Below are positions 3,660 to 6,597 of a stretch of DNA of 12,347 nt, in pieces (position 1 is the stretch's first letter; each line of letters starts with the position of its first letter). Source of the stretch: an uncultured Alcaligenaceae bacterium. Its GTDB lineage: Bacteria; Pseudomonadota; Gammaproteobacteria; Burkholderiales; Burkholderiaceae_B. The stretch is taken from NCBI GenBank assembly GCA_937897265.1, contig CALCPT010000495.1, positions 1 through 12,347 of the forward strand. The letters are read 5' to 3'. The position numbers were made by a program, and so were the translations under genes. The notes under the pieces are model-generated. The model searched no databases. It saw only the letters and a list, made by a program, of their open reading frames with translations, and was not told the origin of the DNA.

Positions 3660-4163
3660 ATGGTTAAAGTTAAATCTTTATTAGTGTTGGTCTGTCTGCT
3701 TTGGTTGGCGGGCTGTACGCCTGAATACAACTGGCGTGAACTCATCGTTGCTGATGACCGTGCAATCGTGATGTTTCCCTCAAGGGTAAAAACCGAGCAG
3801 CGCACGATTCGAGTCGATGGTAGCGACTTGGTGTTTTCGCTGACCTCTGCCGCGGTCGATCAGTCTGTATTTTCGGTGGGGTATGCGCCCTTGAGCTCAG
3901 CGCTGGATTCTGCCCAAGGTGAGCGACTGGTTCAGGCTTTTGCGACGGCGCTTGCAGCTCGAGTTGGTCAGCCACTTGCGCCGCAGGCGTTAAACGGTGA
4001 CGTGTTCGAACTTGAGTCGGTCGTGGGCGGTCAGGCTTCGCGCTTGATGGCTCGAGTCTTGATACATCGCGGCATGTTGATTCAGGTCGTCGTGTCTGGC
4101 CCCAAAAAGTCCTTATCAAAAGAGAACGCTACTGAATTTATGCGCTCGTTGGTGCTGCGATAG
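3660..4163 (+). CDS. Putative lipoprotein of unknown function
   Basis: The product is 167 residues from the ATG at 3660-3662. The N-terminus MVKVKSLLVLVCLLWLAGC is a textbook lipoprotein signal: basic start, hydrophobic core, lipobox LAGC with Cys19 as the lipidated residue; Thr at +2 would allow outer-membrane sorting by the Lol rule. The mature part (PEYNWREL, then an alternating strand-rich region ending MRSLVLR) resembles small uncharacterised lipoproteins that I recall from other betaproteobacteria, with a PEYxWRE start and a TSAxVDxxxFxVGYA segment; no catalytic motif is visible and I assign no function. A TTG at 3648 would add four residues, but neither start has a good ribosome binding site; a stop at 3630-3632 limits the N-terminus. 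The last 26 bases overlap the 3' end of the convergent LuxR-type gene. Confidence 0.8.
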   Translation: MVKVKSLLVLVCLLWLAGCTPEYNWRELIVADDRAIVMFPSRVKTEQRTIRVDGSDLVFSLTSAAVDQSVFSVGYAPLSSALDSAQGERLVQAFATALAARVGQPLAPQALNGDVFELESVVGGQASRLMARVLIHRGMLIQVVVSGPKKSLSKENATEFMRSLVLR

Positions 4164-4419
4164 AGGCGAGCGCGTCTGAAGGCTGGCTAACAGTTGCGGC
4201 AGCTCGGGCAGGCGAGCCATGCAACAGGTTGTGCCGCAGCGCTAGCGCGACAGCCGCTTGACGGCCGTAAACGTTTAGTTTTCTGCAAGCGTTTAACAGG
4301 TGAAAGTTGATCGTTCGTTCGCTGACGCCCAGAATCATGGCGGTCTCCCAGCTCGTTTTGCCAAACGACACCCATTCGAGGCATTCGAGTTCTCTTTCTG
4401 AGAGCTTTGGTAGGGTCAT
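4138..4419 (-). CDS. Stand-alone LuxR-type (GerE) DNA-binding domain protein
   Basis: A 93-residue product is predicted from the ATG at 4417-4419. Residues about 3-66 are a complete LuxR C-terminal helix-turn-helix: LSERELECLEWVSFGKTSWE, then ILGVSERTINFHLLNACRKL. Glu10, Leu14 and Gly20 fit the spacing of the invariant residues of the family. The wording SWE...ILGVSERTINFHL is that of acyl-homoserine-lactone-type LuxR proteins rather than of response regulators. There is no sensor or receiver domain: the frame is open for 90 codons more (to a GTG at 4687-4689), but that stretch covers the metX promoter and riboswitch and shows no autoinducer-binding residues. AGGAG lies 11 bases before the ATG, rather far. 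The tail after the domain (about 67-93) is Ala/Ser/Pro-rich and overlaps the lipoprotein gene by 26 bp. It may be a genuine short regulator or the relic of a truncated LuxR; I cannot decide. Confidence 0.7.
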   Translation of the reverse strand: MTLPKLSERELECLEWVSFGKTSWETAMILGVSERTINFHLLNACRKLNVYGRQAAVALALRHNLLHGSPARAAATVSQPSDALASIAAPTSA

Positions 4420-4447
4420 GAGGTCTCTGGCTCCTGCAGCTGCTAAT

Positions 4448-4471
4448 TTCAAGTGCACAGTGTGCCTTGAA
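4448..4471. promoter_or_regulatory. Dyad symmetry upstream of the LuxR-type gene
   Basis: Outer arms TTCAAG (4448-4453) and CTTGAA (4466-4471) enclose inner arms GCACA (4455-4459) and TGTGC (4461-4465); only the extra T at 4454 and the centre G4460 break the symmetry. Eleven paired positions around a single central base suit a dimeric DNA-binding protein better than an RNA hairpin, which needs a larger loop. It lies 28 bases upstream of the small LuxR-type gene, about 130 bases before the metX -10. An autoregulatory operator is a reasonable guess; it is not a canonical lux box. Confidence 0.5.
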
Positions 4472-4601
4472 CCCGAGCGTCTGAAAACTCGCAAAACCCC
4501 TGTAAAACAATAAAAATTTGTAGCTATTTGTAAGAAATTGAGGCGAAACCGATTCGAATTGTTACCAATGTATGTGTCTGTACGCGGTAACCACCGTGCA
4601 A

Positions 4602-4610
4602 TGCTAGAAT
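4602..4610 (+). promoter_or_regulatory. Extended -10 promoter for metX
   Basis: TGC directly followed by TAGAAT (4605-4610) forms an extended -10 element, which fits the absence of a recognisable -35 hexamer at the standard distance. Transcription would begin near 4617, just ahead of the first stem of the SAM-II riboswitch at 4622. That placement is independent support for the promoter. An inverted repeat GTTACC/GGTAAC (4561-4566, 4586-4591) lies where the -35 would be. Confidence 0.65.
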
Positions 4611-4620
4611 TTGTCTGAGT

Positions 4621-4676
4621 TGGCGCCGATTTGCTCGATCCGCTTGCGGGCGCCTCATAAATCCCGCTAAAGAAGG
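4621..4676 (+). promoter_or_regulatory. SAM-II riboswitch controlling metX
   Basis: The leader matches the SAM-II (metA-type) aptamer closely. P1 pairs GGCGCC (4622-4627) with GGCGCC (4649-4654). It is followed in the loop by GATTT (4628-4632), as in the known RNA, where the middle U contacts the sulfonium. TTGC at 4644-4647 can pair in pseudoknot fashion with GC...AA of GCTAAA (4666-4671); T4668 corresponds to the second sulfonium-contacting U. CC at 4640-4641 can pair with GG at 4675-4676. The linker from P1 to GCTAAA is 11 bases and contains ATAAAT, in length and position as in the crystallised metX RNA as I remember it. One difference is about five extra loop bases near 4633-4639. AGAAGG at 4671-4676 is also the metX ribosome binding site, so SAM binding should hide it and block translation. 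The class is mainly alphaproteobacterial, with betaproteobacterial examples. Confidence 0.93.
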
Positions 4677-4681
4677 TCCGT

Positions 4682-5911
4682 ATGACCACACAGTTCGTTT
4701 CACAAGACGCGCATGCTGCAAAGACGCCCTCCGAAGTTGAGGTGGGTTCTGTTGGCGTTGTTCACACCCAGTTTTTGCAATTTCACGAGCCGTTACCCCT
4801 GAGTAGCGGTCAAACGATTAACTCGTATGAGTTGGCGATTGAAACTTACGGTACGCTCAATGCTGAGGCCAGCAATGCGGTGTTGGTGTGTCATGCGTTG
4901 AATGCGTCACATCATGTCGCGGGTCGTGCCGCCGACAACCCTGAAGATATTGGCTGGTGGGATAACTTGGTCGGCCCGGGAAAACCTGTTGATACCAACG
5001 TATTTTTTGTGATTGGTATCAATAATCTCGGTTCGTGTTTTGGGTCGACAGGCCCTGCTTCGATTCGACCCGAAACTGGCGAGCCCTGGGGGGCTGCGTT
5101 TCCGGTCTTGACGGTTGAGGACTGGGTGCGTGCGCAGGCTCGCGTGGCAGACAAACTTGGTATTCAGCGGTTTGCTGCAGTCATGGGGGGGTCTCTTGGC
5201 GGTATGCAGGCACTGAGTTGGGCCATCACCTTGCCAGAGCGGGTTGCGCACTGCGTAGTGGTTGCCTCGACGCCTAAGCTGTCGGCGCAAAATATTGCGT
5301 TTAACGAAGTGGCGCGGCGCGCAATTATTACCGACCCCGAGTTTCATGGGGGTAACTATTACGCACACAAGACGGTACCTCGTAGTGGCCTGTCGGTGGC
5401 GCGTATGGTCGGTCACATCACCTACTTGTCTGACGATGACATGGCTGAAAAATTTGGTCGAACTCAACGTGAGCCTGCAGCTGGTGGCGCGTTTCATTAT
5501 GGCTATGGTGTTGAGTTTGAGGTCGAGTCTTATTTGCGCTATCAGGGCGAAAAATTCTCGCGCTATTTTGACGCCAACACGTATTTACTGATCACTCGCG
5601 CACTTGATTATTTTGATCCCGCGCGTACGACCGATGGCGATTTAGCAAAAGCGCTGGCGCCGGCGACGGCAGATTTTTTATTAATTTCGTTTACGACGGA
5701 TTGGCGCTTTGCGCCTGCTCGTTCGCGAGAAATCGTACAGGCATTGCTGAAGAATGAACAGGCCGCCACGTATGCTGAGATAGACGCGCCTCATGGCCAT
5801 GATGCCTTTTTGCTAGATGACGCCCGTTATCATGGGCTGATGCGCGCATACTTTTTGCGAATTGCAGCGACGCTGACAGGCGTGACGACCCAGCTCGGGG
5901 TGCAGAGATGA
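4682..5911 (+). CDS. metX: Homoserine O-acyltransferase (probably succinyltransferase)
   Basis: The 409-residue alpha/beta-hydrolase-fold enzyme activates the hydroxyl of homoserine with an acyl-CoA, the first committed step of methionine synthesis. The catalytic triad is visible: nucleophile Ser171 in [12 protein letters not shown], Asp340 in FTTDWRFAP and His373 in [11 protein letters not shown]. The oxyanion/substrate signatures [15 protein letters not shown] (67-81) and the conserved block from [15 protein letters not shown] are intact. Betaproteobacterial MetX proteins are generally classed as succinyltransferases (MetXS); Arg342, two residues after the catalytic Asp, agrees with that class from memory, where acetyl-specific enzymes tend to have Leu. 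The N-terminus is some 20-30 residues longer than usual and of low conservation. AGAAGG ends five bases before the ATG and lies inside the SAM-II riboswitch. The gene leads an operon with metW and the ampG-like gene. Confidence 0.96.
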
Positions 5912-6597
5912 TTCACGACACAAGCGCCACAAGTCAGGCAACGGGTCAGGCTCGATTGGCCGGCCAAATGTCAGCGCCTCAAACGACTGAGCTGCGGGGT
6001 GACCTTGCCCGTATCGCGCAATGGGTACGACCCAAGACCCGCGTGCTTGATTTAGGTTGCGGCGATGGGACCTTGCTCGCTCATCTCAAGCGCAGTAAGA
6101 GCGTTCAGGGAGTTGGGGTCGAAATCAGCGATGAGCACGTGTTGAGTTGCGTGCAACGTGGTGTGCACGTCATTCAACAAAACCTTGAAGATGGCTTGGC
6201 CATGTTCGATGATCAGCAGTTTGACACCGTGGTGTTATCTCAAACACTGCAGTCAATGCACAACACTGAACATATTCTCAGAGAAATGACGCGCGTCGCG
6301 CGTGAGGCGATTGTGTCATTTCCAAACTTTGGTTATTGGCCCCATGGCTGGTCGATTCTTTTAGGGCGTATGCCGGTGACCGGGCAAATGCCCTACGACT
6401 GGCACGATACGCCTAACATTCACCTGTGCACGCTGAAAGATTTCGAACGCCTGTCGCAAAAATTAGGCTTCAGTATTCTTGAGCGCGCAACATTCAATGA
6501 TCAGCGCGAGGTAAAGTTTCTGGCGGGTTGGCGTAGTACCCTCGCGGCTTATCGGTTTACGGCCGGTCACCACTCGGGCGCACGCACTCGCGTATGA
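5908..6597 (+). CDS. metW: Methionine biosynthesis protein MetW (SAM methyltransferase fold)
   Basis: The 229-residue protein has a class I methyltransferase fold with the SAM-binding motif [13 protein letters not shown] at 46-57, followed by the acidic VGVEIS strand and the MetW-specific region [10 protein letters not shown], then VSFPNFGYW and [18 protein letters not shown]. MetW accompanies MetX in many proteobacteria; it has been reported to act with or on MetX in acylation of homoserine rather than as a conventional methyltransferase, though its exact chemistry is not firmly settled. The ATG at 5908-5910 overlaps the metX stop in ATGA, which points to translational coupling. A second ATG at codon 21 (5968) has no ribosome binding site, so I kept the overlapping start. 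The first 20 residues are poorly ordered-looking and could be dispensable. The 3' end overlaps the next gene in the same way. Confidence 0.93.

Follow-up and report, generated by a model that had tools for sequence, protein, structure and literature searches.

The window analysed here, a 12,347-nucleotide stretch of DNA from an uncultured Alcaligenaceae bacterium, carries a metX gene whose leader had been described in a first-pass annotation as a SAM-II riboswitch with an enlarged loop, and the locus raises the question of which RNA stands in front of this gene and by which route it would control it. Judged on its sequence features, the element is most likely an ordinary, well-supported SAM-II riboswitch of the translational type.

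Identity and architecture of the metX leader element

The SAM-II assignment is borne out by the covariance-model search that the annotation had proposed for it. In cmscan, positions 4613-4692 match the Rfam family SAM_alpha (SAM-II, RF00521) with 41.7 bits (E 1e-6 in the window) against a gathering cut-off of 36, and the alignment to the Rfam 15 model covers its full length (1-79) with a single inserted base. Across the whole window, the Rfam 15 scan gives two matches above cut-off, i.e. one tRNA and SAM_alpha, and in the window's own genome (89% complete) RF00521 has one match only, the metX-leader copy. None of 14 control genomes searched with RF00521 gives a match. The order read in the window is GGCGCC-GATTT...TTGC-G-GGCGCC-TC-ATAAAT-CCC-GCTAAA-GAAGGTCCGT-ATG, and P1, GATTT, TTGC, ATAAAT and GCTAAA all stand in SAM-II order as first described (Table 1). 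The span initially given, 4617-4684, does hold the element, although the Rfam model places the 3' end rather at about 4692. We take the U of GCTAAA to have a role in SAM binding, as in the crystal structure.

Table 1. Coordinates of the riboswitch, its parts and the genes behind it in the window.
Feature	Position	Strand	Basis
SAM-II (SAM_alpha, RF00521), full Rfam model	4613..4692	+	cmscan, 41.7 bits
P1 5' strand GGCGCC	4622..4627	+	Rfam structure line; P1 covariation in 74 beta elements
P1-enclosed loop, 21 nt: L1 GATTT, variable part, P2 5' strand	4628..4648	+	Rfam consensus length
L1 GATTT	4628..4632	+	sequence
P2b 5' strand GATC, partner 4675-4678	4637..4640	+	pairing across family combinations
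P2a 5' strand TTGC; GC with GC 4666-4667, TT with AA 4669-4670	4644..4647	+	sequence, conservation
P1 3' strand GGCGCC	4649..4654	+	Rfam structure line; P1 covariation
ATAAAT linker	4657..4662	+	sequence
GCTAAA, P2 3' strand and SAM-pocket region	4666..4671	+	sequence, conservation
Shine-Dalgarno AAGAAGG, overlaps P2, holds genus-specific extra A (4673/4674)	4670..4676	+	Rfam insert; loci counts
P2b 3' strand GGTC, takes in Shine-Dalgarno GG	4675..4678	+	pairing in family combinations
metX, homoserine O-acyltransferase	4682..5911	+	ORF; NCBIfam NF047916, NF001209; ATG 5 nt past Shine-Dalgarno
metW, overlaps metX end	5908..6597	+	ORF; TIGR02081, 278 bits

The gene behind the element is metX, as had been stated, its product scoring 661 bits with NF047916 (named homoserine O-succinyltransferase MetX) and 564 bits with NF001209, and metW is likely in one operon with it. 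The metX ATG of the window lies 10 nt past GCTAAA. On the minus strand, an ORF at 4138-4689 with a LuxR-type HTH (GerE) is divergent from metX. Since this ORF as listed begins inside the riboswitch, its real start codon probably lies deeper within the frame, and coding across the riboswitch was rejected, only residues 95-150 matching a family above cut-off. A promoter scan found nothing.

For comparison, the element was set beside three groups of loci. The 'family' consists of the f1 set together with 80 named loci whose MetX is closest to that of the window, and is taken as Alcaligenaceae (Bordetella, Achromobacter, Advenella, Zwartia, Jezberella), the named loci being the best 80 of at least 562 confirmed MetX relatives, some with MAG titles that look mislabelled; its 112 loci (92 distinct) are the window, the 80 named and 31 others. 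The 'order' stands for other families of the same order, and 'outside class' for the rest of the phylum, presumably alphaproteobacteria; both are made up of RF00521-positive places among the matches listed and are biased to recognisable copies. The 50 outside-class loci, less four without a regex match and one duplicate, leave 45 distinct, and in the order set of 104, L239 is read off-place and L194 is left out.

A start codon at most 25 nt from GCTAAA, in frame and open with MetX, is present at all 112 family loci (ATG in 107), and between 37 and 92 MetX residues separate it from the first motif found. The frame is thus kept through many indels, which on sequence grounds makes the aptamer-adjacent start very likely the one used for metX.

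The loop enclosed by P1 is not enlarged. Its 21 nt equal the Rfam consensus, the alignment has no insertion there, and the same length is found in all 92 distinct family elements. Loops outside the class range from 15 to 22 nt and are most often 21 nt (24/45, among the matches listed), and those of the order measure 18-23 nt plus one of 32, with 20 the commonest (49/104, again among the matches listed). The loop as an unusual feature, or as the mark of an enlarged-loop SAM-II variant, was rejected since its length is the class norm; the earlier reading came from comparison with the crystallised Sargasso Sea RNA, reportedly a compact copy with a loop about four bases shorter. A truly long-loop copy, unlike that of the window, is the RF00521-listed L242 from a 1.3-Mb genome, with 32 nt enclosed by P1.

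Conservation of the pairing was examined in an alignment of 74 beta elements that includes the window's own (A1, from which model R1 was built; the off-place readings L183, L240, L246 and L195 are absent). In P1, four of the six pairs have both-side changes, 98.1% of cells are paired and 33 both-side changes are counted, neither of the latter two values being reached in 500 shuffles. The outermost pair, unpaired in 11/74, accounts for 29 of these 33 changes, and the count of further P1 pair types in the same elements is not above shuffles (307/500). GATTT, TTGC and GCTAAA are invariant in 74/74, and the invariance of TTGC/GCTAAA makes a covariation test of P2a impossible. The distal helix P2b (GATC/GGTC) forms four of four pairs in 32 of the 34 distinct loop/tail combinations of the family, where it does not vary and covariation is uninformative (500/500 shuffles equal). 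Outside the class, 30 distinct combinations give 3.50 pairs versus a mean of 3.07, above all 500 partner shuffles, with GGCC/GGCC the commonest form (8/30). P2b is weak in the rest of the order (mean 2.74 of 4, a value that includes four off-place readings, L183, L240 and L246 at the variant, and L195), yet still above 500 shuffles.

Proposed Shine-Dalgarno burial and the extra base

From its sequence, the element reads with good confidence as a translational OFF switch for metXW. Family membership, pairing potential, conservation and the position and frame of the start codon are directly supported, as is the absence of a detected terminator; SAM binding, the direction of control and the coupling of metW are what we infer. 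At low SAM, the pseudoknot would be open or transient, the Shine-Dalgarno AAGAAGG would be free, and MetX would be translated from the ATG at 4682. At high SAM, the pseudoknot would be locked by the ligand docked between the P2 helix and L1 (GATTT), with TTGC paired to GC.AA and GATC (4637-4640) to GGTC (4675-4678); the GATC/GGTC helix would then bury the Shine-Dalgarno GG, and translation of metX, and of the coupled metW too, would drop. One paper, in the available passages, describes burial of this kind for the Sargasso Sea SAM-II and suggests it for metA of S. meliloti (PMC9373788).

The alternative to be weighed here is that the element, like those of other Burkholderiales, terminates or attenuates transcription. 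Terminator-like hairpins follow 94 of the 104 elements from other families of the order (5.8 expected) and 34 of the 45 outside the class (1.3 or 2.0 expected), both among the matches listed, and SAM-II termination in betaproteobacteria has been reported (PMC2258182, PMC4239095, each as excerpted). The accessible text of Leyn 2014 (PMC4239095) further describes terminators as consistently 3' of the beta metXZ elements, three Alcaligenaceae included, which counts against the translational model. Against termination in the present case, no terminator-like site was found at 4400-4900 of the window, hairpins of this type within 180 nt follow only 4 of 92 distinct family elements, i.e. at chance level (3.7 and 5.0 expected from shuffles), and the metX ATG follows GCTAAA at the short distance given above. 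Terminator control was therefore rejected for the family, and for the window's element we regard it as improbable. A downstream complement of the loop of at least 7 exact bases occurs in 29/105 elements of the order (a count that includes the off-place readings L183, L240, L246 and L195), 17/104 of the family and 2/46 outside the class, versus about 3-4% in shuffles, and hints at a possible antiterminator in some copies. By the terminator comparison, SAM-II of the Burkholderiales would use two expression platforms: terminators for the majority of copies sampled beyond the family, and burial of the Shine-Dalgarno for the Alcaligenaceae.

Relative to the Rfam consensus, the length changes at one point only: the 3' strand of the pseudoknot carries one additional A (4673/4674) between GCTAAAG and GGTC. 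The window's genus has GCTAAAGAAGG where most of the family has GCTAAAGAGG (78/112 loci); GAAGG is found at 24/112 family loci and, within the genus, in 27 of its 29 elements, the two others being L298 with GAAAGG (two extra As) and L299 without GGTC. The insertion makes the P2 spacer 3x4 rather than 3x3, so that P2b could weaken. One might then suppose that the additional base broke switching, leaving a degenerate or non-responsive SAM-II remnant whose leader is now a mere ribosome-binding region, a view to which the second inserted A of L298 and the absence of a full P2b in L055 and L299 also lend themselves. Yet GATTT, TTGC and GCTAAA are intact, the element is nearly unchanged in those 27 genus elements although the flanks vary, and P2b is kept in the genus with its register shifted by one base. 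A broken switch is on this evidence quite improbable, and the extra A in the Shine-Dalgarno strand is a small variant. A GGTC/GACC hairpin (4675-4678 with 4684-4687, predicted fold of the + strand) spans the start codon; in the window's species this local structure could hide the start in the SAM-free state, and may tune basal translation of metX.

Spread of SAM-II and related leaders in the Burkholderiales

The first-pass annotation had also held that a copy in a betaproteobacterium adds to the known spread of SAM-II, and this does not stand. The figure legend of the founding 2005 paper already has Bordetella bronchiseptica in the SAM-II alignment (PMC1273637), alpha- and beta-Proteobacteria are named for SAM-II terminators in an excerpt of a second paper (PMC2258182), and a passage of a third calls SAM-II commonest in Alpha-, Beta- and Gammaproteobacteria (PMC2704228). 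RF00521 itself matches 165/200 family genomes in 38/43 genera (129/200 above cut-off), 29/32 genomes of the genus (27 above), 137/300 of the order (52 above) and 84/398 of the phylum (70 above). Taxonomic novelty was rejected on the family-wide matches and on these earlier betaproteobacterial reports, as far as their excerpts go (PMC1273637, PMC2258182).

Model R1 reaches 226/300 order genomes versus 137/300 with RF00521, its 74 training sequences, matched by construction, being included, and in 23 of 24 genomes picked for a closer look R1 finds a match. Of 30 R1 loci read, 8 stand before metX, 5 before metZ, 8 before metK and 4 before MATE-like genes, and 5 have no query match. In genomes without an RF00521 match, the metX/metZ leaders L341, L342, L345, L348, L350, L351, L358 and L359 retain the SAM-II core, with P1 and GCTAAA set apart by added sequence or a hairpin; such insertions probably account for part of the RF00521 misses. 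These results suggest that the public RF00521 model misses many betaproteobacterial copies. Two weak R1 matches in the window's own genome, on C39 (21.9 bits) and C414 (17.8 bits), were negative in tblastn with met-gene queries and are taken as chance. Other R1 matches (L336, L338, L340, L343, L346) have a short stretch from P1 to GCTAAA, and downstream of them neither the met nor the MATE queries match. Among RF00521-listed places, a downstream ORF resembling metH or metK by its translation is seen at L139, L186, L201, L204, L220, L224, L229 and L231 and at L125, L174, L181, L247 and L248.

At 14 of 24 loci of an operon that encodes a ~100-aa protein starting with M[FY]DC and a MATE-like transporter (named by sequence), a canonical SAM-II is followed in tandem by the variant that also stands before metK (L118, L180, L182, L183, L208, L215, L218, L223, L226, L234, L387, L388, L390, L391; two genomes are represented twice among the 24). 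At two further loci, L240 and L246, the upstream copy has AATTT. The small protein has no Pfam match in four copies tested and no credible NCBIfam match in three.

The metK leaders that R1 additionally finds carry GAGTTAA...GACAACTTGC...GCTAAAGCGTCGC, and none of eight such loci has an Rfam 15 match at the element, even at E 1. A model of these eight (R2, to which they match by construction) gives 48.9 bits in the window's own genome at G000:C562:1922-2020 on the + strand (L411), about 100 nt before metK, where GAGTTAA, GACAACTTGC, GCTAAAGCGTCGC and an inserted hairpin are present. This copy keeps P1, UUGC/GCUAAA and the P2 spacing. Its type mostly has GAGUUAA where SAM-II has GAUUUG, GACAACUUGC in place of the usual loop strand and GCUAAAGCGUCGC with a GAC/GUC distal helix, and most family copies seen have an extra hairpin before GCUAAA. 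R2 matches 207/300 genomes of the order, 92/101 of the family, 63/158 of the class and 8/170 of the phylum, counts that overstate the metK variant because R2 also picks up ordinary SAM-II. When the best-scoring 59 R2 loci were read, the element was followed by metK in 47, by the small-protein/MATE operon in 7 and by other genes in 5. Among 51 distinct R2 elements, all six P1 pairs form in 41 and five in 10, with several compensatory types, and the mean of 5.80 pairs compares with at most 5.20 in 500 shuffles; 48 have GAGTT as L1 and 3 have GATTT, and a terminator-like hairpin follows 3/51. At L344, L347 and L353, a SAH riboswitch (RF01057) follows the metK-leader element on the same strand at a distance of ~1.3 kb, just past metK.

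The metK-leader RNA is plausibly an unclassified SAM-II subclass. The U that is changed from GAUUU to GAGUU presumably sits at the SAM pocket, going by the crystal structure, and by sequence this change possibly confers altered affinity or a different ligand; the relative is a natural test of what one pocket base does to SAM-II recognition. We think it probable that the genome holds at least two SAM-II-class RNAs, and that the Burkholderiales have both a changed-pocket subclass and a tandem SAM-II control unit. A hint of such leaders is already in print, as a 2022 paper, in the part available, mentions that regulatory elements in the metK, metX and metZ leaders of Burkholderia had been confirmed in unpublished work (PMC8814607). 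The metK relative would also fill a gap, the regulation of metK in betaproteobacteria being reported as unsolved in the accessible text of Leyn 2014 (PMC4239095).

Relation to known SAM riboswitches and to the metXZ element

The window's element shares with RF00521 SAM-II the full model, P1, L1 GATTT, the TTGC/GCTAAA pseudoknot, the distal P2b, the metX context and the loop length. It differs in the extra A between GCTAAAG and GGTC, in a P2b of GATC/GGTC rather than the GGCC/GGCC commonest outside the class, and in that no terminator was detected. With the Sargasso Sea metX SAM-II (PDB 2QWY) it has in common the translational layout and a Shine-Dalgarno inside the pseudoknot, as the available passages describe them (PMC9373788, PMC5352136). 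SAM-V resembles it in the H-type pseudoknot and in similar ligand contacts, as excerpted (PMC2704228), whereas the window has the final 3' pairing and no SAM-V match at the Rfam gathering score; a SAM-V identity was rejected, as only the tRNA and SAM_alpha reach that score.

The closest comparison is with the metXZ element of Leyn 2014 (PMC4239095), which, in the sections available, is a new pseudoknot element of 35 betaproteobacterial genomes (3/3 Alcaligenaceae) with six conserved regions, a 1:4 stem, a 2:6 pseudoknot and a downstream terminator. It resembles the window's element in its metXW or metZ leaders, its stem and pseudoknot, its single copy and its occurrence in Alcaligenaceae, but is described as novel and with a terminator, of which the window's family has no excess. 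One could hold that the window contains this separate RNA and not SAM-II proper, since the genes (metXW) and the family coincide, and the same sections find SAM_alpha only in Rhizobiales and Rhodobacterales. Set against this, the 1:4 stem and 2:6 pseudoknot of the published description, on which the comparison is based, have the SAM-II topology and fit the pairing of the window's element, and RF00521 scores both the window copy and 129/200 family genomes above cut-off. We consider a separate metXZ RNA in the window extremely improbable. We found no statement equating metXZ with SAM-II in the papers searched, a few of which were represented by passages. As far as its published description goes, metXZ and SAM-II are most likely one thing, and metXZ is probably SAM-II that was overlooked because RF00521 underscores the beta copies.
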